A stretch of 64,000 nucleotides of DNA, from positions 124,001 through 188,000 of the forward strand of contig JAJCZZ010000049.1 in the NCBI GenBank assembly GCA_029262115.1, given 5' to 3'. This DNA is from Gemmatimonadota bacterium. Its GTDB lineage: Bacteria > Gemmatimonadota > Gemmatimonadetes > Longimicrobiales > Gaopeijiaceae. Both the position numbers and the translations under genes were made by a program. Of this stretch, positions 564-49,149 are shown piece after piece. Numbering within the stretch: position 1 is the first letter of the stretch; each line of letters begins with the position of its first letter. Below the pieces are notes generated by a model, which ran no database searches, had not been told where the DNA came from, and worked only from the letters and a program-made list of their open reading frames with translations.

Positions 564-1685
564 ATGTCAATCGAATCGAGGGGGCGTGCCTGGTTGGAGG
601 TCGACGCCGGAGCGCTCCGGCGGAATTTCCGGGCGGTGCGCGCGTCGGTGGGCCCCTCCGTGGGAATCGTGCCGATGGTCAAGGCGGACGCGTACGGCGT
701 GGGTGTGCGGGAGGCCGTACGCGCGCTCGATGCCCACGAGCCGTGGGGGTACGGCGTCGCGTCCGTCGCGGAGGGAATCGAGCTTCGACGTCTCACCGAG
801 CGGCCCGTCGTGGTCTTCACTCCGATCGCGCCCGGGGAGCTTCCCGCCGCGATCGACGCCGACCTTCGGATCACGGTGTCGGACGAGGCGACTCTCGTGG
901 CCCTTGGGCGGGCCGCGACGGACGGTGCTTCGGCTCGGTTCCACGCCGAGATCGACTCGGGTATGGGGCGGGCGGGCCTCGACCCGCGCGGGATCGACTC
1001 CTGGGGGCCGGCGCTCCAGGCCGCCCTGGCCGGAGGCGCGGTGTGGGAGGGTGTCTTCACTCACCTTCACTCGGCCGACGACTCGCCCGATACGGTGGAC
1101 CCGCAGATCGCGCTCTTCGAGAGCACGTTGGCCCGCCTCGCGCCGGGGCCGGACGTCCTCCGGCACGCCCTCAACAGCGCGGGCTGTTTCGTCCGGCCGG
1201 GGTACGCCTTCCAACTCGTTCGCCCGGGCATCTTCCTCTACGGAGGGCGGCCCGGCATGGAATCCCCCGAGCCCGACGCGGTCGTGAGCCTCCGTGCTCG
1301 GGTCATTCGGGTCAAAGAGGCGCGGCCGGGCGACACGCTGGGCTACGGGTCGACCCACGTGGCGGAGCGCGCGGAACGGTGGGCCACGGTCGCGGTCGGA
1401 TACGGAGACGGGCTTCCGCGTGCGCTCTCCAACAAGGGCTGGGGCGTGGTGGGCGGACGGCGCGTTCCGATCATCGGGCGGATCTCCATGGATGTGACCG
1501 TGGTAGACATCACCGGTCTGCCGTCGGTGCGACCGGGTCAGGTGGTTACCTTCCTGGGTTGCGACGGCCAAGAACGCGTCACGCTCGGAGAGATGGCGGA
1601 TCTGGCAGGCACGATCGGATATGAGGTCCTTACGGGCTTCACACCTCGGCTTCCCCGGATCTGGGAGTTACCGGTTGGACCCTGA
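564..1685 (+). CDS. alr: Alanine racemase
   Basis: PLP enzyme interconverting L- and D-alanine; it supplies D-Ala for peptidoglycan in the cytoplasm. The 373-residue length is normal. The PLP lysine lies in VKADAYG (K40) and the catalytic tyrosine in LGYGS (Y261). AVGYGDG and GRISMD are the conserved C-terminal barrel motifs. The frame is open further upstream (from 480), but ATG 564 starts just before the conserved WLEVD strand and is the sensible start. The stop overlaps the first codons of the damaged cdd reading frame, so both were probably one operon. Confidence 0.95.
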
Positions 1686-1960
1686 CACCCTCGTCCAGCG
1701 TGCTCGTGCTGCTCGGGATTTGGCGTACGCGCCGTACTCGGACTTCCGTGTCGGTGCCGCGCTGGAGACCGTGGACGGTTCGGTATTCCCGGGAAGCAAC
1801 GTCGAGAACGCCTCGTACGGTCTCACCATCTGTGCGGAACGGGCGGCTGTCTTCTCGGCGGTGGCTGCGGGTGAGGTCGGGTGGGGTACGTAGGGAATGG
1901 ACGTTGGACGAACTTCTGCCGGACCGATTCGAAGGGTCGACGCAGAGATCAATGGAATGA
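1675..1960 (+). pseudogene. cdd: Cytidine deaminase remnant with internal deletion and frameshift
   Basis: From TTG 1675 the frame reads a typical CDA N-terminus: [13 protein letters not shown], the substrate motif SNVENASYG and the first zinc motif CAER. It then stops at 1891-1893 after 72 codons. The +2 frame immediately continues with TLDELLPDRFEG, which matches the usual CDA C-terminus (ELLP..F) and ends at 1960. Everything between, normally about 40-45 residues including the PCGACRQ motif with two zinc-ligand cysteines, is absent. The product cannot form the zinc site. This is either a real decayed gene or an assembly deletion; the two ends match the family too well for chance. Deoxycytidine salvage would need another enzyme. 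Confidence 0.82.
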
Positions 1961-1985
1961 CACGAGGGCGAGACTCGGATATCAC

Positions 1986-3293
1986 GTGATACGGATCAAA
2001 TTTTTTGCCCTGGCGGGGCTGTGCGTGCTCGGTTCAATGGCGTGCTCGGAACTGAACCCGACATCGCTGGACGAGGAGTTCCTCCCGCCGGCCCCCCTGA
2101 CAGCCGAGATCCGGCTGGGGTGGGACGCGTTCGCGAGCAACCTGGAGGTCTTCGGAGGCTTCGGCTCTCCGCTGGAGCTCGGGAGCGGAGTCACCGCGAG
2201 GCTGTTCGCCGGGACGTTGAACGCGCGGACGCTGGCGCGTTTCACCGGGTATCCCCAGGCGGCGACGGTTCGCGACAGTGCGGGGAATACGCGAGCGGAC
2301 AGCACCCTGACGTTCGTAGGTGGATGGGTCGTGGCGGTCGTGGACACCCTCGCGAGTGTGTCGTCGGGCCCGGTCACGCTGTCGCTCGGTGCGCTCCAAC
2401 AGGAATGGGACCCACGGACGACTACGTGGGAGTTTGCGGTGGACACGATCAACGACCGCCGCTCCTGGAGTGAACCGGGTGCCGGGCCCGCAACGGACCT
2501 GGGAATGGCCGTCTGGGATCCGGCCGAGGGCGACTCCGTCCGCTTCGCCGTCGACTCGGCCCAGGTGGCGGCGTGGGCAGACACCCTCGATCTGAGCCGG
2601 GGCGTCCGCCTGGCGGCGGAAACCGAGGGCGTTCGCCTCAAAATCAACAACGTGTTTCTTCGGCTGGATACGCGATCGTCGATCGATCCGGACACGGCCC
2701 TGGTCCTCACGGCGCCGCGACAGACCATCACGTTCATCTATGACCCGATTCCGGCGCCTCCGCCCGACGGGATCCGAATTGGCGGTGCGCCGTCGTTCCG
2801 TACGGTTCTGGATATTCGTGTGCCGGATGCCCTGACCTCACCGCAGAGTTTGTGCGACGCGGCAGGGTGCCCGTTCGCGCTCACCGTAGAGCGCCTCAAC
2901 TACGCGGCCATCGTGCTTCGAACGCGAGCGACCCCTCCGGCTTTCCAGCCGACGGATACCGTGAATCTGGACGTCAGACCTGTCCTGCTTCGCTCGGCTC
3001 TCCCAAAATCCCCGCTCGGCACGTCGATCACCGGGGGCCTCGGTCGGCGTGTGGGTCCCGACCTGTTCGGCTCGGCTGCGGGCGCGGAGATCGAGATCCC
3101 GGTGACCCAGTTCATTCGAGACCTGATCCGCGGCGCGACCGCGACGGGTGCCACGCCCCCTTCGACGCTCGCTCTCCTGTCGACCTTCGAGCCCCTTTCG
3201 ATTGCGTTCGCCTCTTTCTACGGCCCGGGCTCTGATCTGGAGCCGGTGCTCAAGCTCGTCGTGACCGCGGGCCCATCGGTGACCCTGCCATGA
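1986..3293 (+). CDS. Secreted lipoprotein of unknown function, DNRLRE-like character
   Basis: I chose GTG 1986 because it gives a clean lipoprotein signal: basic start, hydrophobic run, then lipobox GSMAC with the lipidated Cys at residue 20. The mature 415 residues are rich in beta-strand patterns. Segments such as WDPRTTTWEF, SVRFAVDSAQVAAWAD and the C-terminal ASFYGPGSDLEPVLKL recall DNRLRE-type extracellular proteins, but I see no catalytic motif. The stop overlaps the next gene by ATGA, so it is translationally coupled to a predicted outer-membrane barrel. I infer an exported surface or periplasmic pair. Function unknown. Confidence 0.7.
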   Translation: MIRIKFFALAGLCVLGSMACSELNPTSLDEEFLPPAPLTAEIRLGWDAFASNLEVFGGFGSPLELGSGVTARLFAGTLNARTLARFTGYPQAATVRDSAGNTRADSTLTFVGGWVVAVVDTLASVSSGPVTLSLGALQQEWDPRTTTWEFAVDTINDRRSWSEPGAGPATDLGMAVWDPAEGDSVRFAVDSAQVAAWADTLDLSRGVRLAAETEGVRLKINNVFLRLDTRSSIDPDTALVLTAPRQTITFIYDPIPAPPPDGIRIGGAPSFRTVLDIRVPDALTSPQSLCDAAGCPFALTVERLNYAAIVLRTRATPPAFQPTDTVNLDVRPVLLRSALPKSPLGTSITGGLGRRVGPDLFGSAAGAEIEIPVTQFIRDLIRGATATGATPPSTLALLSTFEPLSIAFASFYGPGSDLEPVLKLVVTAGPSVTLP

Positions 3294-4498
3294 CGCTCAC
3301 ATTGCCTGGATCCCTGCGTTCACGCCGCTCGGCGGGTCGTGTGGCGCTCTTCTTCGGATGTGTGGCGGCGGTCGGCTCATCGAGCTTGGAGGCGCAGTCG
3401 CTGTTCAACGGGGTGGGTCTGGGAGTACCCACCGACCCCGTCGACGCGCGCAGCCGGGCGCTCGGGAATATCGGCATTGGTCTGTGGGGCACCGCACTCC
3501 TGCCGGGAGATCCGGCGGCGGCGGCGGGGATCACCGTCCCCACCGCGCTGTTCACCGCGCAGCCGTCCTGGGTGGAGTCGACCCGTGACGGGACGACCGC
3601 CGAGGCGCGGTCGACTCGCTTTCCACTCCTCGGGATCGCCTATCCTGCGTGGAACCTGGGGACGCTCACCTTTAGCTTCGGGTCGTTCCTCGACCAGCGC
3701 TTCAGCGCAGAGCGGGCCGTATCCCTGGAGCTTCAGGACGGCCCTCTCGACGCCACCGACGAGTTCCGCTCCGAGGGCGGCGTCTCCGAGATCCGCCTCG
3801 GCCTCGCGCGACCTCTGACCGGATCCGTGGCTGCGGGCCTGCAGGTGGGGCGCTACAACGGCACACTGACGCGGACGCTCACGCGATCTCTGGACGGAAT
3901 CGACGCCGAGGGTTCGGTGCTCGACTTCTCCGCGAGCGGCCGGTGGGCCTATTCGGGGACCTCCGTGACGGCGGGGGCGTCCATGAACATCGGGACCGTC
4001 GGCCGTGTGGCGGGGAGTGTCACCTGGTCGGGCGACCTTGAAGCGACCCCGTCCGAGTCGACCGAGGCGTCCGGGCGGGCCTACGACCTCCCGTTGCAGA
4101 TCCGGCTCGGTGGGACCGCGGTCCTGGCCCCCGGGTTCGCCGTGACGGCATCGTTTGGGAGTGCTGACTGGACCAGCGTGTCTGCGGGTCTCGGAAATGC
4201 CACCGCCCAGAGCGCTCGGACGTACGGGGCGGGCGTCGAACTCGGTCGCGCGCAGATCCTGGGCCGTAACGCACCTCTTCGCTTCGGCTACCGGCGGTCG
4301 GACCTTCCGTTTGCCTTGGCCGACGGCTCACCTCGTGAGATCGTCTGGTCCGGCGGGTTCGGACTCGGCCTCAGCGAGACCGCCAGCGTGATCCTGGCCG
4401 GCGTCGACCTGGCGCTCGAGCGGGGTACGCGCTCCGGGGGTCTGATCGACGAATCCTTCTGGCGTGCCGCGCTGACGTTGAGGGTGGCTGGGTTCTGA
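3290..4498 (+). CDS. Predicted outer-membrane beta-barrel protein
   Basis: The 402-residue protein has an N-terminal signal sequence ending near SSSLEAQ (about residue 36). It then shows alternating hydrophobic/polar strands with many Gly and aromatic turns, and ends in Phe (RVAGF), the usual last residue of Gram-negative barrels. The N-terminal motif VDARSRALGNIGIG resembles PorV/FadL-like proteins, where an NPA-like plug follows the signal peptide. It overlaps the upstream lipoprotein gene by 4 bp, which suggests that the two work together at the outer membrane. The transported ligand cannot be told. Confidence 0.7.
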   Translation: MTLTLPGSLRSRRSAGRVALFFGCVAAVGSSSLEAQSLFNGVGLGVPTDPVDARSRALGNIGIGLWGTALLPGDPAAAAGITVPTALFTAQPSWVESTRDGTTAEARSTRFPLLGIAYPAWNLGTLTFSFGSFLDQRFSAERAVSLELQDGPLDATDEFRSEGGVSEIRLGLARPLTGSVAAGLQVGRYNGTLTRTLTRSLDGIDAEGSVLDFSASGRWAYSGTSVTAGASMNIGTVGRVAGSVTWSGDLEATPSESTEASGRAYDLPLQIRLGGTAVLAPGFAVTASFGSADWTSVSAGLGNATAQSARTYGAGVELGRAQILGRNAPLRFGYRRSDLPFALADGSPREIVWSGGFGLGLSETASVILAGVDLALERGTRSGGLIDESFWRAALTLRVAGF

Positions 4499-4502
4499 CC
4501 CC

Positions 4503-5789
4503 ATGCCGGTCTTCTACCACACGTTCGGCTGCAAGGCCAACCAGTACGACACCGAACGGATGCGCCAGGAGGCCGAGGCGCGGGGTGCGTCGACGGTAGA
4601 AGATCCCGGCGCCGCGGACGTGTGCGTGGTGAACACCTGCACGGTCACCAACCAGGCCGATGCGGGCGCGCGCCGGTACATCCGCCGGATGCGCCGGGAG
4701 CATCCGGACGTGCGCATCGTCGTGGCGGGATGCTCCGCCGCCCTACGGGCCGACGAATATTCCCGGATGGACGGAGTCTCCCAGGTGGTGGCCGGCCACG
4801 ATCCGATGGCCGTGGCGGCGAGCGTCGTCGGGGCGCGGCCGGTACAGATCGAGTTGCGGACCGGTCTCGACCGGATCGACACCGAGTCGATCGGCGGAGC
4901 CCTGCTTCGCGAGCGGCGAGGGGCCACCCGTGGATGGCTGAAGGTCCAGGACGGCTGCGACCGGAAGTGCTCGTTCTGTGCGACCCGCCTGGCCCGAGGG
5001 GCGTCCCGATCGAGGCTCCCGGAGGAGATCGTGGCCGAGGCGCGGGCCCTCGCTCGGCATCATCCGGAACTCGTCGTGACCGGGATCCACATCGGGCACT
5101 ACGGCCTGGACTTGGCGACGCCGTCCACACTGGGCGGGCTCCTTGCCATGCTCATCGAGGCCGTACCGGACGTCCGCTTCCGGCTCGGGAGCGTCGAGGC
5201 CACCGAGGTCGACGACCTTCTCCTCAATCTGCTTGCGACATCCGGCGACCGCCTCGCCACACACCTTCACATGCCTCTCCAGAGTGGAGCCGATCCCGTG
5301 CTCCGCCGAATGCGTCGTTGGCATACGCGAGAGCAGTACCGCCGACGCGCGCTGGAGATCGCCGAGAGGGTAGCTCCTCTCGGGCTGGGGGCGGACGTCA
5401 TCACAGGATTCCCGGGCGAAACCGAGGAGGACCACGCCGACACGATGCGGTTGGTCGAAGAGCTTCCGTTCACCTACCTCCACGTTTTCCCGTTCTCACC
5501 CCGGGACGACACCGTGGCCGCCGCTCTCCCGGACCCTGTGCCTCAACGGGTGGCGGGCGAACGGAGTCGTGAGCTGCGCAACCTCGCGCAGACGAAGGGT
5601 GCGGCCCACGGGCGTGCACGGTCGGGTGAACGGGCCGCCGTGGTCGTGGAAGGGGACGGCGCGACCGGACTGACCGAGGACTACGTTCGCGTGACGGTAT
5701 CAGGCGAGCGTCCGGACGGGGCGTCGGGACTCGTCTCCGGTCGCCTGCGCTACGCCGGGGATCATCTGTATATTGTCTCGCCCCGATGA
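4503..5789 (+). CDS. mtaB: tRNA (t6A37) methylthiotransferase MtaB
   Basis: Radical-SAM enzyme that converts t6A37 to ms2t6A in tRNAs decoding ANN codons. The N-terminal UPF0004 domain has Cys10 (FGCKANQYDTE), Cys46 (NTCTVT) and Cys77 (AGC) for the auxiliary cluster. The radical-SAM cluster motif CDRKCSFC lies at residues 152-159, with a C-terminal TRAM-like region. KxNQYDTE plus NTCTVT distinguish MtaB from MiaB. Length 428 is normal. It lies 4 bp after the barrel gene and 19 bp before miaB, so two paralogous methylthiotransferases form one unit. Confidence 0.92.
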   Translation: MPVFYHTFGCKANQYDTERMRQEAEARGASTVEDPGAADVCVVNTCTVTNQADAGARRYIRRMRREHPDVRIVVAGCSAALRADEYSRMDGVSQVVAGHDPMAVAASVVGARPVQIELRTGLDRIDTESIGGALLRERRGATRGWLKVQDGCDRKCSFCATRLARGASRSRLPEEIVAEARALARHHPELVVTGIHIGHYGLDLATPSTLGGLLAMLIEAVPDVRFRLGSVEATEVDDLLLNLLATSGDRLATHLHMPLQSGADPVLRRMRRWHTREQYRRRALEIAERVAPLGLGADVITGFPGETEEDHADTMRLVEELPFTYLHVFPFSPRDDTVAAALPDPVPQRVAGERSRELRNLAQTKGAAHGRARSGERAAVVVEGDGATGLTEDYVRVTVSGERPDGASGLVSGRLRYAGDHLYIVSPR

Positions 5790-5808
5790 TTTCCCTGGAT
5801 TGGACTCC

Positions 5809-7182
5809 ATGAGCGACCAACCGCGCAAACGCGCGTACGTCGAGACGTACGGCTGCCAGATGAACATCAGTGACGGCGAGCTGATGGAAGGGATTCTGGA
5901 GACCTCCGGGTACGAGATCGTGTCGTCCCCGGAGGCCGCCGACGTCGTGCTGGTGAACACATGCGCAATCCGGGAGCACGCCGAGCAGAGGGTGCTTGGT
6001 CGAGTGAGCCAGTTGAGCGCCTTGAAGCGTGAGCGGCCGGACATGGTCGTGGGCGTGACCGGTTGCATGGCCCAACGTCTGGGGGAAACGCTCCTCGGGG
6101 ACGGTCGGGTCGATCTGGTCATGGGACCGGACGGCTATCGCTCCCTTCCGGCGGCGCTCAGCGGTCTCGGCGCCCCCAAGCCCGCCCCCCGTCAGAAACG
6201 TCGCCGAGGTCCCCAACTGGCTGTCCTCGATCTCAACATGGGGGAGAACTATCAGGGGCTCGAGCAGCGACGGGCGGAGGGGCCGTCGGCGTGGGTGCCG
6301 ATCCAACGCGGCTGCGACCATCGGTGCACGTTCTGCATCGTCCCGTACGTTCGGGGCCCGGAGAAGAACCGTTCGGCCGAGGAGATCCTGACCGAGATTC
6401 GTGGGCTTGCCGAGACGGGGGTGAGCGACGTGACCCTCCTCGGGCAGACCGTGAATTCGTATCGATGGGATGACTGGTCGTTTTCCCGCCTGCTCAGGGC
6501 GGTCGCGCGGGTGGACGGTATCCGGCGTGTGTGGTTCACGTCACCCCACCCGAACGACGTTACGCCCGAACTCGTTGCCGCCATGGCCGAGGAAGACGCG
6601 GTCTGTGAGCAGCTTCATCTGCCCGCGCAGTCGGGGTCGGACCGCACGCTGAAGCGGATGCTCCGACGCTACACCGTGGGGTCGTTCCTCGATAAGGTGG
6701 AGATGGTCCGCTCCTCGATTCCAGACGTCTCGCTGTCCACCGACATCATCGTCGCGTTCCCTGGTGAGACGGAAGACGAGTTCGAGCAGACGCTCGACCT
6801 CATGCGCGCGGTCCGCTTCGACGATGCGTATACATACCGGTATTCCCCGAGGGACGGCACTCCGGCAACGCGCCTTCCCGCCGATCAGTTCGTTCCGGAC
6901 GACGTCGGCCAGGGACGGCTGGAGCGCCTGATCGAAGTGCGCCGGTCGATCCAGTCCGAGATCAACCGGAGCGAGGTCGGTCGGACGGAGGAGGTGCTCG
7001 TCGAGAAAGTCGCCCGGGGACCGGGGCAGATTCTCGGCCGGACGCGGAGGAACAAAGTGGTTGCGTTCCCTGGAAACCCCGAGTCGATCGCGACCTACAC
7101 GCAGGTGATCCTCGAATCGACCACCGGAGCGACGTTCGTGGGGCGAGAGGTCGCCCGACCGGCTCTGGCCGCGATCTCGTGA
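5809..7182 (+). CDS. miaB: tRNA-2-methylthio-N6-dimethylallyladenosine synthase MiaB
   Basis: Methylthiolates i6A37 to ms2i6A in tRNAs reading UNN codons, using SAM and two 4Fe-4S clusters. ATG 5809 gives SDQPRKRAYVETYGCQMN, the standard N-terminus; the frame is open from 5773 but the extra 12 residues are unlikely. Auxiliary-cluster cysteines are at 16, 52 and 86, and the radical-SAM motif CDHRCTFC is at 169-176. A TRAM domain is at the end (VEKVARG..LGRTRRNKVV). 457 residues, normal. Its stop overlaps the GTG of the next gene. Confidence 0.95.
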   Translation: MSDQPRKRAYVETYGCQMNISDGELMEGILETSGYEIVSSPEAADVVLVNTCAIREHAEQRVLGRVSQLSALKRERPDMVVGVTGCMAQRLGETLLGDGRVDLVMGPDGYRSLPAALSGLGAPKPAPRQKRRRGPQLAVLDLNMGENYQGLEQRRAEGPSAWVPIQRGCDHRCTFCIVPYVRGPEKNRSAEEILTEIRGLAETGVSDVTLLGQTVNSYRWDDWSFSRLLRAVARVDGIRRVWFTSPHPNDVTPELVAAMAEEDAVCEQLHLPAQSGSDRTLKRMLRRYTVGSFLDKVEMVRSSIPDVSLSTDIIVAFPGETEDEFEQTLDLMRAVRFDDAYTYRYSPRDGTPATRLPADQFVPDDVGQGRLERLIEVRRSIQSEINRSEVGRTEEVLVEKVARGPGQILGRTRRNKVVAFPGNPESIATYTQVILESTTGATFVGREVARPALAAIS

Positions 7183-7499
7183 ACCGTGTCGCGGGGGTCG
7201 CCGGGGTCGCGCTGGTCCTGATCCTCTCGATGGCCTTCGCAACGCTGAACGGTGGTCAGCGCGTCACGGTGCGCCTCGGCGTCTACACGCTCTACTCGGT
7301 GCCGCTCACGGTCGTCGCGTTCGGTGGCCTCATCACCGGCATGCTGATCATGTTGGTGGCGGGCGTGCATTCGGACTTGAAGGTGCGGCGTATTCTGCGC
7401 GCTCGGCTGCTCCAGGAAGGAGCCGAGGAGCGGAGCCGCTTCGTGGACCGCAGCCAGCAAGATCTCTTCCAAGGAGGAACGACCTCGCTTGAGGAGTAG
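7179..7499 (+). CDS. LapA-domain inner-membrane protein
   Basis: A 106-residue protein with two hydrophobic helices (about residues 6-26 and 42-64) separated by a short basic/polar loop. This is the layout of the LapA/YciS (DUF1049) family, proteins associated in other bacteria with envelope and LPS assembly. The second half is a charged, probably helical cytoplasmic tail. The start GTG overlaps the miaB stop (GTGA), so translation is coupled. Family assignment is from topology and length more than from motifs, so the function is tentative. Confidence 0.65.
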   Translation: MNRVAGVAGVALVLILSMAFATLNGGQRVTVRLGVYTLYSVPLTVVAFGGLITGMLIMLVAGVHSDLKVRRILRARLLQEGAEERSRFVDRSQQDLFQGGTTSLEE

Positions 7500-7526
7500 G
7501 ACGTCACCCCGGCGGCCTCATCCCCG

Positions 7527-9752
7527 GTGAGGGGATGGCCGCCGGTGTCCCGGCTCGCGCTCACGTTCGCGACCGGGACCGTGGCCGCACTCCATTTCGG
7601 CCTGCTGTTGCCGGCCGTGCTCCTCCTCAGTTGGACCTGGTTGCCCATCCGGCCATGGGCTCGCCCTCTGACCGTGCCCATGGCCTGCGCGGGCCTTGCC
7701 GGCCTCCTCGTCGTGGGGGGCGGCGGAGGCACGGAGTGCTCGTCCCTGTCGTCTGGCGCCGTGCACCTTCATGGTCGCTTCGTCGCCCCGACGCGTGGCA
7801 CGACGCCGTTCGCGGTTGAGGGTCGACCCGCATGTAAGGAGTTGCGGGTGTGGACCGATCAGCGAGTCCGGGCGGGCGAGCGTGTCGAGATCCGCGGCCA
7901 GGCCCGGGGGGGCAGGGCAGGAACGGTGGTCCTCGCCCAGGAGGTGGTCGCGGCCCCGTCCGACCGCGGAGACCTCCGGTGGGCCGCCGTGCGGTGGCGG
8001 GGTCGATTGGTCGAGCGGATCCACGACCTCTTTCCCGAGCGGGGCGCGCTGGTGACGGCGCTGATTCTTGCGCGCCGGGAAGGACTGGAGCCGGAGGTGC
8101 GGGACGCCTTTGCCGCGACCGGTACCTCCCATCTTCTCGCGATCTCCGGCTTCCACGTCGGCGTGATTGCGGGTATAGTGCTAGGCGCGCTCCGCGCGCT
8201 CGGGGTGGCGCGCACGCGCGCTCTGCTGGCCGCCTCAGTCACGACGTGGGGATACGTTCTGTTCCTCGGCGCCCCGTCCGCGGCCAGTCGCGCCGCCACG
8301 ATCATCACTGTGTCGGCGTTGGCGGCGGTGCGTGAACGCCCGCAGGCCCGTTGGGGGGCGTTGGGTACGGCCCTCCTCCTTCTGCTCGGCGTGGCGCCGG
8401 CAGCGCTTGAGGAACCCGGCTTCCAGCTCTCGTTCGCCGGAGCCGCCGGCCTTGCGGCCTGGGCTCGACCCCTGGAACGGAGATTCCGGAGCCTGACGCC
8501 GCCAGCCGTCCCTACCGCTCTCCTGTCGGCGCTCGCCGCGGGCGTGGCGGCCACGGCGGCGACGCTGCCGGTCGTGGCGTGGCACTTCGAGCGCCTGTCC
8601 CTTGTCGGTATCCCGGTAACGCTCATCGCCTCACCCTTTGTCGCGTTCGCCTTGCCCGGGTCCCTGGCTGCCGTGGCCTTCTCCTTCGTTTCGCAGGGGG
8701 CCGGGAAGTTCCTCGCAGGAGGTGTCGACACCGTGCTCGTGGGGCTCAACCTCGTCACGACGTCCATGGCTGCGCTTCCATGGGCGAGCGTGTGGGTCCC
8801 ACGAACGTGGGTCTCCGTGGCCGTGGCGGGGGCCGGTTTCGTGCTCATCGCCGCCCACGTCGGCGGCGTGAACGGGCTTCGTCGCCGTATCGCCGCTGGG
8901 ACCGCGGCGGCGGCTTTCCTTATCCTGTGGCCGATCGCGGCGGGCCTCGGTGGCTCCGGTCGCCTCGAGATCCTCACGATGGATGTGGGGCAAGGCGACG
9001 CCATCGCGCTGCGAAGCCCGAGAGGCCGGTGGATCCTGGTGGATGCGGGACCCCCGCCGTCCCGCTCACCGGGGCCCGTGGTCGCCACGCTCCGCCGCCG
9101 GGGTGTGACACACCTCGCCGCTCTCGTGCTGACCCATCCGGACCTCGATCACATCGGCGGAGCTCCTGACGTGCTCGCCGACCTCGGCGCTGCCGTCGTC
9201 ATGGACCCGGCGCGCGCGACCGGAAAGAGCGGGTACATCGACGTGTTGGAGGCCGCTCTCTCCCACGGGATCCCTTGGCGGCCGGCGTCGGCCGGTGCGG
9301 TGATCCGATTGGACGGGGTCGAGCTCGAGGTCCTGCACCCTGGACCGCATGGAGGTGAGGTCGGAGTCGGGAGCAACGACGGATCGGTGGTTCTGAAGGT
9401 CCGCTTCGGCGACTTCGACGCCCTCCTCACCGGAGACGCTCCCGCCGAAGTGGAGCGGGCTCTGGTGCGGTCGGGCGCCCTGGGATCGATCGAGGTACTG
9501 AAGGTCGGGCACCACGGGAGTTCGACGTCGACGGACTCGCTGATGCTCGCGACGGCACGCCCACGAGTTGCATTGCTCTCGGTCGGTCGCCGAAACCGAT
9601 ACGGCCACCCAGCGTCGGACGTCATGGGGCGGCTCGCTCGAATGGGCGTCGAGGTGCATCGCACGGATCTGCAGGGATCGATCCGCTTGATCGCGAGGCG
9701 TGACGGCTCGTTCGACGTGGCGGGCGAACGTCCGGGAAAGCCCGTCCGTTGA
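7527..9752 (+). CDS. comEC: ComEC/Rec2-family DNA uptake channel
   Basis: Inner-membrane protein for passage of single-stranded DNA during natural transformation. The order of domains is standard: N-terminal membrane and OB-like region (1-170), the Competence membrane domain with [14 protein letters not shown] at about 190-205, many transmembrane helices to about 470, then a metallo-beta-lactamase-like domain. That domain has MDVGQGDAI, the metal motif [10 protein letters not shown] and KVGHHGSS. 741 residues is normal and all lactamase-like ligands seem present. GTG 7527 was taken as start; GTG 7545 is an alternative. No other competence genes are in the window. Confidence 0.9.
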
Positions 9753-42082: not shown

Positions 42083-42841
42083 ATGAGCCGCAAGGATTCA
42101 GGAAGGACAGCTTCCGACCGACGAAAGGCGCGGCGGGAAAGCCGCGAGCAGGCGGAGGCTGCGGAAGAGAACGGTGCGCTCGAGTGGCTCAAGTCGGGCG
42201 TGGTGGCCGTGGCGCTGTTTTTCTTTCTGAGAGCGTTCATCCTCCAGACGTTCGTCATCACGTCCGGTTCGATGGAAGACACGCTGCTGGTCGGGGACAT
42301 GCTGGTGGTCAATCGGGCCGCGATCGGCTCGCCGATCCCGTTCACCGGGCTACGCATCCCCGGATACTCGACGCCGAAGCGAGGCGACGTCCTGGTGTTC
42401 GACCCCCCCCACGAAGAAGATCTGAAGCTGGTGAAGCGCCTCATCGGACTCCCGGGCGACACGGTGGAGATGCGGGACGCGGTTCTCTACCTCAATGGCG
42501 TGCCTCAGGACGAACCCTACGTCCGTGACGAGCAGCGCGGCCCGGACCAGCACCCGTGGATGGTGTGGCAGCGGGAGGTGCTGGTTTCGTCGGTCGACCA
42601 GGGGACCTACTCGCCGACTCGGGACGACTGGGGTCCGCTCGCGATTCCCGAGGATCGTTACTTCATGCTCGGTGACAATCGCGATTCCAGCTTCGACTCC
42701 CGCTACTGGGGCCTCCTGGAGGGATGGCGCCTGGAGGGGCGGGCCGTGTTCAAGTACTACTCGTACAACAAGGACTCCTACCGCCCATTTCCATGGCTAC
42801 GCGAAGTGCGCTGGGGTAGGATCGGCAAACCGATCCGGTAG
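42083..42841 (+). CDS. lepB: Signal peptidase I
   Basis: Cleaves Sec and Tat signal peptides at the inner membrane. The single N-terminal transmembrane helix spans about 38-58; the nucleophile Ser63 is in ITSGSM and the general base Lys118 in LVKRLIGLPGD; box E GDNRDSSFDSRYWG is complete. A 30-residue charged cytoplasmic extension precedes the helix. 252 residues. Last gene of the panB-panC-yqeK-LytR_C-lepB run, 23 bp after its neighbour. Confidence 0.94.
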   Translation: MSRKDSGRTASDRRKARRESREQAEAAEENGALEWLKSGVVAVALFFFLRAFILQTFVITSGSMEDTLLVGDMLVVNRAAIGSPIPFTGLRIPGYSTPKRGDVLVFDPPHEEDLKLVKRLIGLPGDTVEMRDAVLYLNGVPQDEPYVRDEQRGPDQHPWMVWQREVLVSSVDQGTYSPTRDDWGPLAIPEDRYFMLGDNRDSSFDSRYWGLLEGWRLEGRAVFKYYSYNKDSYRPFPWLREVRWGRIGKPIR

Positions 42842-42938: not shown

Positions 42939-43217
42939 CTACGCGGGAGGGCTTTGCCCTTCATACATCTCCATAAGTAGGTCGTCTCGCTCGTACTCCA
43001 GGACCGAGATCTTCTCCCGAAGCCGTTTTATGGAATCCCAAGAAACCGTGGCGGCTATGAGCACCCCGCTCAGCCACGCAACGACGGTCTCAGCTGTCCA
43101 AGACAGGGCCCGCAAACACCTTTCAACCTCACGCGAACGGGCAGCGTCGGTGAAGCGCACTTGTATCTGTCTCCGGCTTTGGGCCTCTAGATCATCCTGC
43201 TTCCCTTCCATTCCCAA
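42939..43217 (-). CDS. Small membrane protein with C-terminal coiled coil
   Basis: 92 residues. A basic/acidic N-terminus is followed by one hydrophobic segment (about 44-58, VVAWLSGVLIAATVSW) and then a heptad-like helix SIKRLREKISVLEYERDDLLMEMYEG. Codon use is less GC-rich than in neighbours (TAT, ATA, CTA, GAT), hinting at recent arrival or a different origin. It lies 83 bp after the large P-loop protein gene on the same strand, so it may be the last member of that operon. No family is recognised. The rest of the 458-bp gap 42842-43299 holds only the lepB hairpin. Confidence 0.55.
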   Translation of the reverse strand: MGMEGKQDDLEAQSRRQIQVRFTDAARSREVERCLRALSWTAETVVAWLSGVLIAATVSWDSIKRLREKISVLEYERDDLLMEMYEGQSPPA

Positions 43218-43299
43218 CTCCGGTGAGAGTGGTGGTGCCGAATCGGGACGGGTCGATGGCCCATCCGACCATCCATTTCGTGCGCGGGCCAGGTAAGCG

Positions 43300-46200
43300 C
43301 TAATGCACGATATTCTGGGTGGCGAGATGGGCGCTGACCGCGCCGACGAGCAACGGCAGGATCTCGTACCGGATGGTATCTTCGATTTCGGACACGCCGC
43401 GATCGTTCTTGCCCGGAACAGCCCGGATGATGTGGCGGTTGCTCAGCGACTCGAGAATCTGAAAGCTCTCGTGCCGGGGTAGGCGGAACACAGCGTCGTG
43501 CTCCCCGAGTGTGAGGGTCCGGTGCTCGAGGAAGGCCTTGAGCGTGAAGTTCTGGTTCAGATCGAGGCCGTACAGGAACGAGAAGTCGAGGGAGTTCGGC
43601 GGGCGCATGGTCACCTCGCCCTCGCTGGCCGTGAAGTCGGCCGAGCGAAGCCACTGGTACAGGGCCAGGCGGAGGTTCCCATGCGACGAGCGGTGGAGTC
43701 GATCGAAGAAGTCGGCCTCGACGATCTCGGCGCGTGCGGACACACTCCGCGCGCGATCGAGCCTTCGCCGCAGCAAATGCCGCCCTTCTTGGGGTTCCTG
43801 GAAGGTGAGAACCAAGCCACTGCGTCGATGCCGCGTCATGATCAAAGAGCGCAGATCGTCCGCGCTCAGCGGCGCCACGTCGAGGCGGTCGACCTGGGCG
43901 ACCGCGGTGGGCTCGGTCCGCTGCACCAGTTGCCAGGCCGACGGATTGATCGATGCCGCCCACAGGACCCGCGGCTCCGTCTCGGCCATCAGCGTCAAGA
44001 AGCGCTCGATCAGATCCGTGCCGGATGAGACCCGCGTGTAGAGGTGCTCGATGTTGTCCAGAATCAGAAGGTCCGGGACGTCGGCCCGCGGCGCCCTGAG
44101 GATCTGGCCGGCGAGCTCGTCGAGGGTCGCGGCCGCCGGCACCCTCAGATGCTTGCTGAGGAGCGCGCAGAAGGCCACCTCGTCGGTGACACGATGATCG
44201 AGTCGGTGATACAGCGATTCGCCGCCGGCCTTCTCGACCCGCTCCCGGAGCACCTTCAGGAAGGACGACGTGCCAGCCCCGTGCCCGCCGGTTACGATCA
44301 AAGGGACCCCGTTGTCACCGTGCCACCGCTGCCAACGGAGCTCGGTTTCGGCCATGAGCGTGTCACGGCCCACGAGAAGTGCCCCCTCTGCCAGCGGCTC
44401 CCCGGAGAAGAGTCGCTGATAGACGAGAGGCAGATCCATCATCATCTGGTCGGCGACCGAAAGCGCCCGGGCGGTCTTGAAGCTGGCGTCTCTCGACCCT
44501 TCGTCGGCGCCGACCAGCGCGCGACCCCGGCGAACGAACCGGGACGCCTGCTTTCGCAGGGCCGCCAGCCCGCGGTCACGAATCTGGCCCGCGCGGCGGA
44601 GCGTCGGGCCGAGCCGCCGCCAGACGTGCGACGCCTGCCGCTCGACGGTGCTCTGAGCGTCCAGGAGACGACCGCGAACCGTACGCGCCAGGGCGCGCTC
44701 CACCAGACGGTCGCAGCCGGCTGTCAGTTCCAGACCGAGTTGGGCGCGAATTTCCGCGACGACCTCCTCGACCGGCCTGTTCGCGGCCCGCAACCCATCC
44801 GCCGCACGGGTGAGTCCGTCCGACAGGAGCTCACGACCGGCTTTGGTGTCCTCGTCACGGGCCCCGTTCAGTTCGGCCTCGGCGGATTCGAACCCGTAGG
44901 CGACCACCTCGGCGACCTCGTCCAGCGCCGCCGCCACACGTGGCGCGGCTTGCACGAGAAGCGCCGGGAGGGTGCGGATGCGCTCGACCCGGAGGGAGTC
45001 GAAGGACTGTCGCCCGGCCTCCTGGAGGCGTACCACACGGGGGTCTCCGCCTGGCGAACGCATCGTGGCCGGGTTCTCGGGGAGCCGGTGGATGACCAAC
45101 TCCACCGGCATACCGCGCAGGACGTTATGGAGACGCGACACCCCCGTGTCCGACGCGCGTCGCGCAGCGTCTTCAAAGCTGGGCGCGACCGGCCGGACGG
45201 CCTTCACCTCCGCGAGGACTCTGTGGGCGGCCTCCCGCAACGAGGGCAAGGCCTCGAGAAGGTCTTCCGCGGCACCGGCGTCCGCCGCGAGAGCATCCAG
45301 CGCCTCGGCCGACGTGCGCGCCACCCTCTCGAGGGCCGAGGCAGCGTCGGCGCGAAGGCGCCCGGGCAGGAGCCGCTCCAGACCCTTTACGGTGTTGAAG
45401 GTCGTGAGGAGCGATCGGTGCAGAGCGAACCGGTCGAGCGTTTCGCGGCCCCACCCGTCCCACGCTCCTACGGGGGCGGGCCGGGGCAGAGGAGGCGGCT
45501 CAGGGCGCGCGGAGTACGGCGGGATTCCGGCCTGGCGAGTGTCGGCGGTCAGCTCGTGGCTCCACGTGTCCACCGCGAGGACCGCCTCGGCGCTCGTCTC
45601 CGATCCGGGCGTGGCCCCCGCCGCCGACTTCAGAGCCGCGTCCAGCTCGGCGGCGGCGGCGGCCACGTCCGTCCAGATTTCTTCGGGCTTGGCCGCCTCG
45701 ACATCGACCGCCTCCCGTTCGGTCGTCGCTTCCAGGACGACCTCGATCCAGTCCCTCCAGGCCGCCTCCACACCCGCTGACCACCGGCCCCACGCTCGGA
45801 GTGCGTCGTGGTACAGATCGGCCCAGCCCGGTTGCACATGGTGGTGCACGTGACGGCGCGACACCGCTTGGAGGTCGATGGTTCGCACACCGCTCGACGG
45901 TCGGACGCGTAGGAAGAGGCGGGCGGCGGCACGGCCCATTCGACGGAGGACGCCCCCGGGAACGGGCTCGAGAAGTTCCTCCGTTCCCGTGCGGAGTTCG
46001 TGTCTCCGAGGTAGGCTCGAAAGCGCCGCGGACATCTCCTCGACGGCGGCACCGTACCGCTCCGAGACCTGGGACAGCGGCTCGTGCTCCTCCCACGCCT
46101 CGGCCAGCGGGCCCTGCACCTCGCCGGCCACAGCCTCAACGTAGCCGGCCAGGCGGGAGCGTGCCTCGGACGGATCGTCGGGACAGGCGCCAGCGAGTCC

Positions 46201-46353
46201 GTGCTCCCCGAGGAGCGCGCGATGTCGCTTCCGAGCCTCGCCCACCGCGGTCACAAGCGGCGGCGCGGTCTCGCCCTCCGGCGTCGACCAGAAGGTACGA
46301 AACGCGGAATGCGCCGCCTCGTCGGCGAGACGGAGTGCGCTATCCACGATCAT
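43300..46353 (-). CDS. 1017-residue helical protein with degenerate STAND/AAA-like P-loop module
   Basis: ATG 46353 overlaps the mscS-like stop by 14 bp. Residues 1-640 are Ala/Glu/Arg-rich and predicted mainly helical, without a recognised domain. At about 660-900 there is a P-loop NTPase-like region: IVTGGHGAGTSSFLK (residues 687-700) occupies the Walker A place, but the invariant lysine is Thr695. Walker B is DLLILDNIEHLY (Asp766). VLWAASINPSAWQLV looks like sensor 1. The C-terminal 130 residues look winged-helix-like (FLEHRTLTLGEHDAVFRL, ILESLSNRHIIR), as in Orc/Cdc6 and STAND proteins. No transmembrane segment is clear. The missing lysine suggests nucleotide binding or hydrolysis is weak or lost. 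Function unknown; coupling to an ion channel suggests regulation of it. Confidence 0.75.
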   Translation of the reverse strand: MIVDSALRLADEAAHSAFRTFWSTPEGETAPPLVTAVGEARKRHRALLGEHGLAGACPDDPSEARSRLAGYVEAVAGEVQGPLAEAWEEHEPLSQVSERYGAAVEEMSAALSSLPRRHELRTGTEELLEPVPGGVLRRMGRAAARLFLRVRPSSGVRTIDLQAVSRRHVHHHVQPGWADLYHDALRAWGRWSAGVEAAWRDWIEVVLEATTEREAVDVEAAKPEEIWTDVAAAAAELDAALKSAAGATPGSETSAEAVLAVDTWSHELTADTRQAGIPPYSARPEPPPLPRPAPVGAWDGWGRETLDRFALHRSLLTTFNTVKGLERLLPGRLRADAASALERVARTSAEALDALAADAGAAEDLLEALPSLREAAHRVLAEVKAVRPVAPSFEDAARRASDTGVSRLHNVLRGMPVELVIHRLPENPATMRSPGGDPRVVRLQEAGRQSFDSLRVERIRTLPALLVQAAPRVAAALDEVAEVVAYGFESAEAELNGARDEDTKAGRELLSDGLTRAADGLRAANRPVEEVVAEIRAQLGLELTAGCDRLVERALARTVRGRLLDAQSTVERQASHVWRRLGPTLRRAGQIRDRGLAALRKQASRFVRRGRALVGADEGSRDASFKTARALSVADQMMMDLPLVYQRLFSGEPLAEGALLVGRDTLMAETELRWQRWHGDNGVPLIVTGGHGAGTSSFLKVLRERVEKAGGESLYHRLDHRVTDEVAFCALLSKHLRVPAAATLDELAGQILRAPRADVPDLLILDNIEHLYTRVSSGTDLIERFLTLMAETEPRVLWAASINPSAWQLVQRTEPTAVAQVDRLDVAPLSADDLRSLIMTRHRRSGLVLTFQEPQEGRHLLRRRLDRARSVSARAEIVEADFFDRLHRSSHGNLRLALYQWLRSADFTASEGEVTMRPPNSLDFSFLYGLDLNQNFTLKAFLEHRTLTLGEHDAVFRLPRHESFQILESLSNRHIIRAVPGKNDRGVSEIEDTIRYEILPLLVGAVSAHLATQNIVH

Positions 46354-47908
46354 CCTCGCCGTCGCGCCCGGAGGGCCGGTCCTCCACAGGCCCAACTCCG
46401 TCCGGCGGTTCGTCCTCCCCGGATGGCTCGTCCTCGCCGGGCGGTTCGTTCTCTGCCGCCGGTTCGTCCTCCCCGGCGGGCTCACTCTCTCCGGCTTCGT
46501 CGGTGCCGTTCTCGGCGGGGTCTTGCGCATCGAGACTACCGTCGTCGGCCCGGCCACTCCCCCGACCGTGCTCGGAGTCACCGTTCACTTCCGGCGGCAT
46601 TTCGGTGCGGGAGAGGTCCAGGTATGCGCGCATCCCGTGGGCGGGTGTCATGAGACCTGCTTCGCGGAAGGCGGCGCGCGCTCGCTCGGTCACGTCGCTC
46701 TGGAAGAGGAACTCGTAGCGGGGGTCGAGGACGTACGCCTTCACCCGGAGGTGGGTCAGGAACGTCTCCTTGAACTCGTCCTTCACGAGCACGACGATCG
46801 GCTTGCTCAGGTAGACGTACTTCGACGACGTAGCGGCCTCGAACGCGATCTTCTTCGCGCGGGCCTCATCGACCGTGCCCGGCAGATACAGGTCCGTGAC
46901 CACCTGGCAGTTCAGCTCGCCCGAGTTGGCGTTCGAGACCTGTCCGTCGACCACCTGGGCGTTCGGCACACTCACGAGGCTGTCGTCGGGTGTGACGATC
47001 CGGGTCGACCGGATGCCGATAGACACGACCTCACCATAGGTGCCCCCGACCTCGACCTTGTCGCCGACCTGGAAGGGCTGGTCGAACACGAGGATCAGTC
47101 CGCCGAACAGATTCTTCAGGAGGTCCTGGGCGGCGAAGCCGACCGCCACGCCGACCGCCGCCGCCGCCGCGAGCATCCCCTGGGCGTCGACCTCGAAGAT
47201 CACCCGGACGATGAAGAAGACGGCCGAGGCCCACGCGAGAATGCGAACGATCGGAACCGACCGCTTCCAGAGCAGACGCGTGCGTGGGTATCGCTCGGCC
47301 AGCGCTTCGAGCACCCAGACGATCGCCCCGATGGCAAGGCGCACCACCACCAACACGATGATCGACCAGAGGATACGGAAGGCCAGTCCAAGCGCCGTGT
47401 CCCCGGCCGCTTCGACGATCCGCCCCGACTGCGCCGCGACATCCGGGCTCTGGGGCATCGAGGACCGTCGAACCTGCGATCCGAGGGAGTCCAACCGTCG
47501 TTCCAGAGCCAACTGGCCCGCCGCGACGTTGAGCAGCAGCCGAGTCAGTTCAGGGTCGATCGCGACGGTCGTCTGACCGCCGGCGGCGGGTGGGGCCACG
47601 CCCGCCGACCCGGACACGTCCGCCGGTCCGGCGCTGGAGTCGGATTGGGCGAGGTCCTCCGTCGCCGAACTCGCTCCTCCCTGGTTCGCTCGTGCCTCCT
47701 CCGTGAGCTCGCCGGAGTCGGGGCTCGGCACCGCCACGACGACCGAGTCGGGCACGGAAGCCGGGGGTGCCGCCCCGTCTGCGACCTCCACTGTGTCCGT
47801 GACAACGGGCCCGAGTTCCGGCTCCTCCCGGCCGCACGCGACGGCGGCGGAGGCGACCAACAGTAGGGCCAGGGTCGAGCGGAAGCGGGTCAAGGGAGCA
47901 CACGACAC
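46340..47908 (-). CDS. MscS-family mechanosensitive channel with lipoprotein-like start and Pro/Glu-rich tail
   Basis: Start chosen at GTG 47908 (TTG 47893 or ATG 47950 are possible; none has a clear ribosome site). The N-terminus reads as a lipoprotein signal, SAAVAC, with Cys25. About 110 low-complexity residues follow, then three hydrophobic helices and the MscS pore helix AAAAAVGVAVGFAAQDLLKNLFGG, next the beta domain FQVGDKVEVGGTYGEVVSIGIRSTRI and the C-terminal MscS domain to about 430. The last 80 residues are repeated GEDEP/PPGEDEP units. Channels of this family open under membrane tension. The tail and the coupling to a large P-loop protein are unusual. Confidence 0.85.
   Translation of the reverse strand: MSCAPLTRFRSTLALLLVASAAVACGREEPELGPVVTDTVEVADGAAPPASVPDSVVVAVPSPDSGELTEEARANQGGASSATEDLAQSDSSAGPADVSGSAGVAPPAAGGQTTVAIDPELTRLLLNVAAGQLALERRLDSLGSQVRRSSMPQSPDVAAQSGRIVEAAGDTALGLAFRILWSIIVLVVVRLAIGAIVWVLEALAERYPRTRLLWKRSVPIVRILAWASAVFFIVRVIFEVDAQGMLAAAAAVGVAVGFAAQDLLKNLFGGLILVFDQPFQVGDKVEVGGTYGEVVSIGIRSTRIVTPDDSLVSVPNAQVVDGQVSNANSGELNCQVVTDLYLPGTVDEARAKKIAFEAATSSKYVYLSKPIVVLVKDEFKETFLTHLRVKAYVLDPRYEFLFQSDVTERARAAFREAGLMTPAHGMRAYLDLSRTEMPPEVNGDSEHGRGSGRADDGSLDAQDPAENGTDEAGESEPAGEDEPAAENEPPGEDEPSGEDEPPDGVGPVEDRPSGRDGEDDRG
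46396..46500 (-). repeat. Degenerate tandem repeat coding the Pro/Glu/Asp tail of the MscS-like protein
   Basis: Imperfect 15-24-bp units rich in GGCGAGGACGAGCC encode EPAGEDEP, ENEPPGEDEP and SGEDEPPD. The repeat stays in frame and lies just before the start of the P-loop gene. Length variation is likely between strains. Confidence 0.6.
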
Positions 47909-48072
47909 GAGGGACCGACGAGGGGAACGCCAATGTCGGCAGGCCCACATGTGGACGTCAATTCGGACGGCTCTTCGGGCGGCTCTTCGTATGCCGACTC
48001 GAACGCCGATCCGGGTGCTGATCTGGACGCTGACCCGGACGCTGACCCGGACGACCCTCGCCGCCCGCCCAC
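47909..48072 (-). repeat. Spacer with short tandem repeats between rlmN and the MscS-like gene
   Basis: A 12-bp unit GGACGCTGACCC (plus-strand reading) occurs twice perfectly at 48025-48048 and a partial third follows; more degenerate copies lie at about 47999-48024. The Asp-rich plus-strand frame and the Arg/Val-rich minus-strand frame produced by it are not convincing proteins. The region has no clear promoter, so mscS transcription may come from rlmN. Confidence 0.6.
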
Positions 48073-49149
48073 TCAGCCCCGTCCGACTTTGAGTTCCGTG
48101 AGCGCGTGCGCTCGGAGTTGACCGCACGCAGCGTCGATATCTCGCCCCCGCGTTTCGCGAATGGCGGCGGAAACCCCGCGGGACTCCAGCATCCCCCGAA
48201 AGGCTTCGATCCGCTCGGCCGGAGACGGGCCCCACGGCTGGTATGGGATGGGGTTGAATGGGATGAGATTCACGAAGGCGCCGACCCTCTTCGCCAGGAC
48301 GGCAACCCCGGGTACCAACTCGAGGGCGTCGTTGACCCCGTCGATCATCGTGTACTCGAAGGTGATCCGGCGGCCGCCCGCTTCGTTGAAGCCGTCGAGC
48401 GCCGCCATCACATCGGGCAGGGGATGCCGCTTCTCCAGAGGGATCAGGGTGCCACGCAGCTCCGTTTCGGGGGCGTGCAGCGAGAGCGCGAGCCCGAACT
48501 GCTCGGGCCGTGCGGCCAACTCTTCGATGCCCGGCACGACCCCGACGGTCGAGACCGTGATCCGGCGGGCACCCACGCCGTAGCCGCCGTTCAGGATCGT
48601 GAGGGACGGCATCACCCCTTTCCGGTTGGCGAGCGGCTCGCCCATCCCCATATAGACGATGTTGGTGATGGAACCGTACCCGTTGTCCTCCGCCCACCGC
48701 CGGGACGCTCGGTACTGGCCGACGATTTCGCCGGGGGTGAGCTGGCGGTCGAAGCCTCCCCACCCGGTCGCGCAGAACGTGCACCCCATGGCGCAGCCCG
48801 CCTGGGAGGAGATGCACAGCGTGAGTCGGCGCGCCGTTGGAATCAGGACCGACTCGACGACCTGGCCGTCCGAGAGCCGCCACAGATGCTTGGCGGTGGT
48901 GTCGGAGCTGACGGAGACCCGATCTTCCTGAGGCTCGTCGAGCCGGAAGGCCTGTGCCAGCGCCTCCCGCTCGTCCGCGGGAAGGTTGGTCATTCCTTCG
49001 AAGTCGGCCGCGAGCCCCTCATAGACCCAGTGCCGCACCTGGCCCGCCCGATACGCGGGTTGGCCCCGCGCGCGGAAGTGATCCGAGAGCGCCACGTCGA
49101 GAGCGTCCGGGGTCAGGGATAGAAGGTCGGTAGATTCAGCGTCGCTCAT
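48073..49149 (-). CDS. rlmN: 23S rRNA (A2503)/tRNA (A37) C2-methyltransferase RlmN
   Basis: Radical-SAM methyltransferase. ATG 49149 gives 358 residues. The cluster motif is CAMGCTFCATG, followed by GMGEPLAN and STVG. The methyl-carrying Cys pair would be the one in DIDAACGQL near the C-terminus and an upstream partner. The frame is open to 49278 but that part overlaps the divergent aspS leader. It faces aspS across a 143-bp gap. Confidence 0.94.
   Translation of the reverse strand: MSDAESTDLLSLTPDALDVALSDHFRARGQPAYRAGQVRHWVYEGLAADFEGMTNLPADEREALAQAFRLDEPQEDRVSVSSDTTAKHLWRLSDGQVVESVLIPTARRLTLCISSQAGCAMGCTFCATGWGGFDRQLTPGEIVGQYRASRRWAEDNGYGSITNIVYMGMGEPLANRKGVMPSLTILNGGYGVGARRITVSTVGVVPGIEELAARPEQFGLALSLHAPETELRGTLIPLEKRHPLPDVMAALDGFNEAGGRRITFEYTMIDGVNDALELVPGVAVLAKRVGAFVNLIPFNPIPYQPWGPSPAERIEAFRGMLESRGVSAAIRETRGRDIDAACGQLRAHALTELKVGRG

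Follow-up and report, generated by a model that had tools for sequence, protein, structure and literature searches.

A putative two-gene system for ion and cell-volume control pairing an MscS-type channel with an AAA+ protein in Gemmatimonadota and Acidobacteriota

MscS channels are textbook passive tension valves, whilst Trk and Ktr potassium channels pair with TrkA and KtrA nucleotide-binding rings, which are RCK/Rossmann proteins. Coordination between valves and ion transport is well known from animal cell-volume regulation; to our knowledge, a nucleotide-controlled valve coordinated with ion transport has not been described in bacteria. We analysed a 64,000-nucleotide stretch of a Gemmatimonadota genome (hereafter the window; contig JAJCZZ010000049.1, positions 124,001 to 188,000), in which an MscS-type channel gene overlaps the gene for a 1017-residue partner protein. 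The channel shares its beta domain (PF00924) and the region of the pore helix with MscS (E. coli YggB type) and the superfamily at large, but differs from ordinary MscS in its obligate AAA+ partner, the lack of a PF21082 match, a lipoprotein-type N-terminus and, in this genome, an acidic tail. As is generally known of Trk/Ktr, a membrane ion pathway and a putative cytoplasmic nucleotide-binding regulator share one operon. Here, however, the regulator is an AAA+ protein with a winged helix and the channel is of the MscS type, and a family search of the window partner protein returned AAA-type matches only, with no TrkA_N or TrkA_C domain. Cdc6/ORC-type ATPases likewise have a winged helix after their AAA+ core, and relatives of the partner match the nSTAND/AAA_16 NTPases above Pfam cut-offs (AAA_16, AAA_22 and nSTAND1). 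Both groups are set apart from the present family by its long helical N-terminus, its transporter fusions, its linkage to MscS and, in the clade of the window, a lost P-loop. K-Cl cotransporters (SLC12, TIGR00930) and CPA/CPA2 antiporters form the N-terminal parts of five fused relatives, which differ from the free transporters in having the AAA+ module as their C-terminal part and an MscS-like gene after them. AVAST and NLR-like STAND defence proteins likewise join a P-loop NTPase to a large helical part, but the partners here are transporters rather than nuclease or protease effectors, and neither a defence-library match nor a mobile-element context was found.

Because the pair lacks the features that define the nearest regulated-channel and defence systems, we regard it as a new kind of system. 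The novelty is that of the system, its protein superfamilies being already known; if any regulated MscS channel were counted as one kind, the system would be a variant of that kind. A preliminary description of the locus had named no described system with these parts, and this holds in the libraries and papers that were searched. No paper on an MscS/AAA+ pair was found in the literature covered, which includes few subscription journals; in the islands of an unrelated restriction system (PMC11090510) a mechanosensitive channel is just one gene among others.

The channel gene lies on the reverse strand at 46340–47908, as seen from the ORF and its translation, and homologues adjoin the ATPase gene in all intact relatives. 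Counted from the GTG at 47908 the product has 522 aa, although the start is uncertain, with the TTG at 47893 and the GTG at 47950 as alternatives. Membership of the MscS superfamily is indicated by the beta domain at 46925–47125 (PF00924, MS_channel_2nd, E 2.5e-21) and by the aligned pore motif GFAAQD; tension-gated conductance would be a further property of that superfamily. Transmembrane helices, placed by hydropathy and alignment, span 47126–47404, the last of them being the pore helix AAAAAVGVAVGFAAQDLLKN. The cytoplasmic vestibule region that follows (46600–46924, from domain search and alignment) is diverged, and the Pfam search found no PF21082 vestibule domain in this channel; seven of the nine MscS-type genes in the genome carry that domain. 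Since three of 14 control genomes with PF00924 likewise gave no PF21082 match, we read the lack as one diverged domain in a channel that stays within the superfamily. The vestibule region is strongly alike across the partner channels, and this conservation makes it a likely candidate for the surface on which the partner docks.

Two further features of the channel had been pointed out in the preliminary description, and both were borne out. The lipoprotein-like start is weak in the window, where a predicted lipobox (AVA-C) places its Cys at 47834–47836, yet among the partner channels a strict lipobox pattern occurs in 30 of 45 from Gemmatimonadota as against 0 of 14 from Acidobacteriota. The Pro/Glu/Asp tail (46343–46599) is real, acidic and of low complexity, and in alignments with relatives it is seen in this genome alone; past the pore motif the window channel has 266 residues, compared with about 187 in most relatives.

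The partner gene occupies 43300–46353 on the same strand (ORF, profile search and fold model), and its start overlaps the channel stop by 14 bp (46340–46353), as first described; both genes are real. The overlap is 4 bp in most relatives and may couple translation of the two genes. A long helical region of about 640 aa makes up the N-terminal part of the product (44434–46353), as judged from AF2 secondary structure of low confidence and from profile matches to other subgroups that are uneven. Profile comparison aligned this region with its Acidobacteriota counterpart (96.7%, 477 columns) and with that of the CPA fusions (97.0%, 520 columns), and likewise the CPA with the SLC12 fusions (96.9%, 525 columns); the comparison of Acidobacteriota with CPA fusions was not significant. 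Strong for three pairs and weak for one, these matches are suggestive of homology of the helical region across subgroups. The full-length AlphaFold model (five rows, pLDDT 49) serves for helix content alone. The C-terminal 416 residues, modelled from a five-row alignment at pLDDT 72, form an AAA+ core and a winged-helix domain (43303–43566). The AAA+ assignment rests on this AF2 core, on its Foldseek matches to Cdc6/ORC and on AAA_16 matches above the Pfam cut-off in L012 and L117, and profile comparison also matched winged-helix repressors to the C-terminus. Among solved structures Foldseek ranked Cdc6/ORC proteins highest (best E 2e-10); TM-scores were about 0.4 and rmsd values large, which makes the likeness one of fold class and of the order of domains rather than of detailed structure. 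A PDB search with the single partner protein gave no useful match. In two relatives (L127:3561-8818 and L128:1235-4663) the AAA+ protein, again followed by an MscS gene, apparently has its own signal sequence and, within the helical part, membrane segments, and a free-standing 107-aa copy of the winged-helix part lies about 5 kb downstream of a full pair in L062 (12574-12897).

A STAND/AAA-like module beside a helical part had been proposed for this protein; the module is confirmed, whereas the label of P-loop protein says too much of the window copy, in which the P-loop is degenerate (GGHGAGTSS). Motif alignment places the Walker A remnant at residues 689-696 (GGHGAGTS; 44266–44289, reverse strand), with Thr in place of the Lys typical of active ATPases, and the Walker B region at residues 762-767 (LLILDN; 44053–44070, reverse strand), with Asn at the catalytic Glu position. 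Across the family the Walker A Lys is present in 19 of 64 proteins, namely all 16 Acidobacteriota-group rows and three from Gemmatimonadota (L012, L060 and L061), and absent from 45, which mostly have Val or Ile at that position. Of the 19 Lys-bearing proteins, 14 retain the second acid of Walker B; of the 45 Lys-less ones, 2 do. On a tree made without the Walker motif columns, from a short search and with several long branches, loss of the Lys maps as a single change in a 45-member Gemmatimonadota clade that includes the window and has retained the pair. As both the Walker A Lys and the Walker B acid are missing, the window protein is probably a relative of ATPases that does not hydrolyse ATP itself.

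Linkage between the two genes is constant and reciprocal. The large-protein profile gave strong matches (E<=5e-25) in 49 of 395 Gemmatimonadota genomes, of which G012 and G253 look like near-copies. The profile of the channel was searched separately (E<=1e-70) and matched 45 Gemmatimonadota genomes once each, and this MscS subtype was absent at that threshold from every ATPase-negative genome among the 395. The four remaining genomes comprise G103, G109 and G394, in which a contig ends inside the ATPase gene or at its start, and G043, whose divergent locus has its own short MscS-like gene, which overlaps the stop of the ATPase gene. Outside Gemmatimonadota, a scan of genome contigs yielded two loci, L092 (Acidobacteriota) and L093 (Bacterium HR08), and 13 of the 297 genomes searched from the former's phylum contain 15 convincing loci between them, with an MscS-like gene directly downstream of the ATPase gene in 15/15. 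The survey of homologues suggested in the preliminary description has thus found the pair in every intact locus of the two phyla sampled, which strongly supports its proposal of a membrane pore with an NTPase-like protein as its dedicated partner. With nine MscS-type genes in the window's genome, the chance of a given gene adjoining one of them would be well under one percent. Distances among channels and ATPases correlate at 0.91, a value obtained without species-tree control and not taken as evidence.

Gene order differs between the forms. In the Lys-less clade including the window the channel gene precedes the ATPase gene, most often overlapping it by 4 bp; the reverse order is found in Acidobacteriota and in the three Gemmatimonadota loci with a canonical P-loop. 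Three Lys-less loci that seemed to have the ATPase first were ORF-overlap artefacts and really have the MscS gene first. Apparent MscS-ATPase fusions in L044, L053, L055, L074 and L086 were rejected, as their 1400-1800-aa stop-free frames overlap a separate MscS frame. Weak matches of the phylum search at profile positions 560-767 (E 1e-3 to 1e-7), as well as those in G543, G627 and G305, were taken to be general AAA matches or fragments and were not counted.

The five fused relatives point to the kind of process that the module serves. In L061 (Gemmatimonadota, 1195-6396, forward strand) and L125 (Acidobacteriota, 4290-9353, reverse strand) an N-terminal K-Cl cotransporter is joined to the helical/AAA+ module (TIGR00930 E 6e-118 and 6e-108, under the full-length cut-off of that model), and the two group in the tree with support of 99. 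Three others (L117, L119 and L126) have an N-terminal Na_H_Exchanger domain of a CPA antiporter (E 1e-17 to 1e-21); L117 adjoins two further antiporter genes and an ordinary MscS gene, and L119 adjoins TrkH (7e-61) and TrkA. All of the fused transporters are proteins of monovalent-cation balance, and an MscS-like gene comes after each fused protein, which suggests that the general job of the module would be to couple monovalent-cation transport to an MscS-type protein. In alignment, the usual Gly/Ala pattern of the pore is missing from the short MscS-like proteins encoded after the K-Cl fusions; their pore helix looks degenerate and they may be non-conducting. In L119 (4054-11996, reverse strand) TrkA, TrkH, the antiporter-AAA+ fusion and the MscS-like gene stand in one same-strand row, possibly a complete cation-balance operon.

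Taken with the linkage, these features indicate that the pair is probably a dedicated two-gene system for ion and cell-volume control, built from an MscS-type channel and an AAA+ regulator. The channel would be the inner-membrane pore, of MscS type, and the large protein would act on it from the cytoplasm as an AAA+/Cdc6-like regulator, its long helical region docking on the membrane transport partner in physical contact and its nucleotide state setting the pore open or closed. The canonical form, found in Acidobacteriota and a few Gemmatimonadota, is predicted to bind and probably to hydrolyse ATP; being ATP-competent, it could let pore opening track the ATP level or cytoplasmic ionic strength as the sensed signal. 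In the clade of the window, where the Lys was lost once and the acid is nearly always gone, the regulator may be a nucleotide-binding or purely structural gate. A broader version, more tentative and still a realistic possibility, is that one AAA+ module controls cell volume in bacteria generally, fitting onto MscS, K-Cl and CPA proteins and setting their activity by its nucleotide state, and that in one clade it became a gate without catalytic activity while the channel there gained a lipid-anchored periplasmic arm. If ion and cell-volume control by the pair is true, some bacteria control their emergency valve through nucleotides and in step with ion transport, and the clade in which the pair has outlived its catalytic residues offers a natural experiment, since clades can be compared for whether they require ATP turnover.

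The alternative that survives best, unlikely as we consider it, is that the AAA+ protein is an assembly or quality-control factor, on which the MscS oligomer and related transporters depend for folding, insertion or disassembly but not for gating. AAA+ proteins commonly remodel complexes, and a constant 1:1 operon linkage would suit a dedicated chaperone; covalent fusion to a transporter, however, would be unusual for a turnover chaperone, and retention of the gene without catalytic residues throughout the 45-member clade argues against an ATP-driven remodeller there.

The preliminary description had offered stress response or abortive defence as possible roles, and ion or osmotic stress is the better of the two given the K-Cl and CPA fusions and the TrkH/TrkA neighbours. 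In an abortive system the AAA/STAND-like protein would sense infection and open the MscS pore, with death or arrest of the cell as the outcome. Its core does lie in the AAA_16/nSTAND neighbourhood, whose fold serves NLR-like defence, and a pore could plausibly act as effector, but PADLOC gave no match at the window locus and only weak P-loop matches among relatives, no relatives were found on plasmids, phages or viral contigs, housekeeping genes surround the window locus, nearly all genomes hold a single copy of a pair that persists for long, and the same module is fused to cation transporters. The lack of defence-library matches and of mobile relatives, together with the fusions, makes this reading, and with it any protection against phage, quite improbable.

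A transcriptional or otherwise DNA-linked regulator, in which the winged helix binds DNA and so connects gene expression or the chromosome with the state of the membrane, has a similarly slim chance. Cdc6/ORC initiators, the closest solved folds, have winged helices, and the resemblance of the C-terminus to winged-helix repressors means that the domain could be a DNA binder instead; the fused forms, however, are tethered to multi-pass transporters, and the winged helices of AAA and STAND proteins often act as lids or contact surfaces. A channel working as an osmotic valve and nothing more, with the pore and beta domain of ordinary MscS and a partner that is simply co-transcribed, is hardly credible when every intact locus in two phyla is paired despite swapped gene order and changing neighbours.

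A small membrane coiled-coil protein had also been counted in the locus. This ORF (42939-43217) begins with TTG, has a codon score of -1.6 versus +241 for the ATPase gene and no family match, and tblastn found no convincing relative in any fetched locus; with neither codon bias nor conservation beside the pair to speak for it, we rejected it as a third component, and the locus therefore consists of two genes. These are flanked in the window by housekeeping genes, which from sequence and general knowledge we take to be an RlmN-type methyltransferase gene upstream on the same strand (48073–49149) and a convergent signal peptidase gene downstream (42083–42841). No third gene is conserved with the pair, the next commonest neighbour family occurring in 10/62 loci. 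A macro-domain-like gene adjoins the pair in about five related loci (e.g. L055:2892-3422 and L049:8231-8503), probably as a clade-specific neighbourhood.
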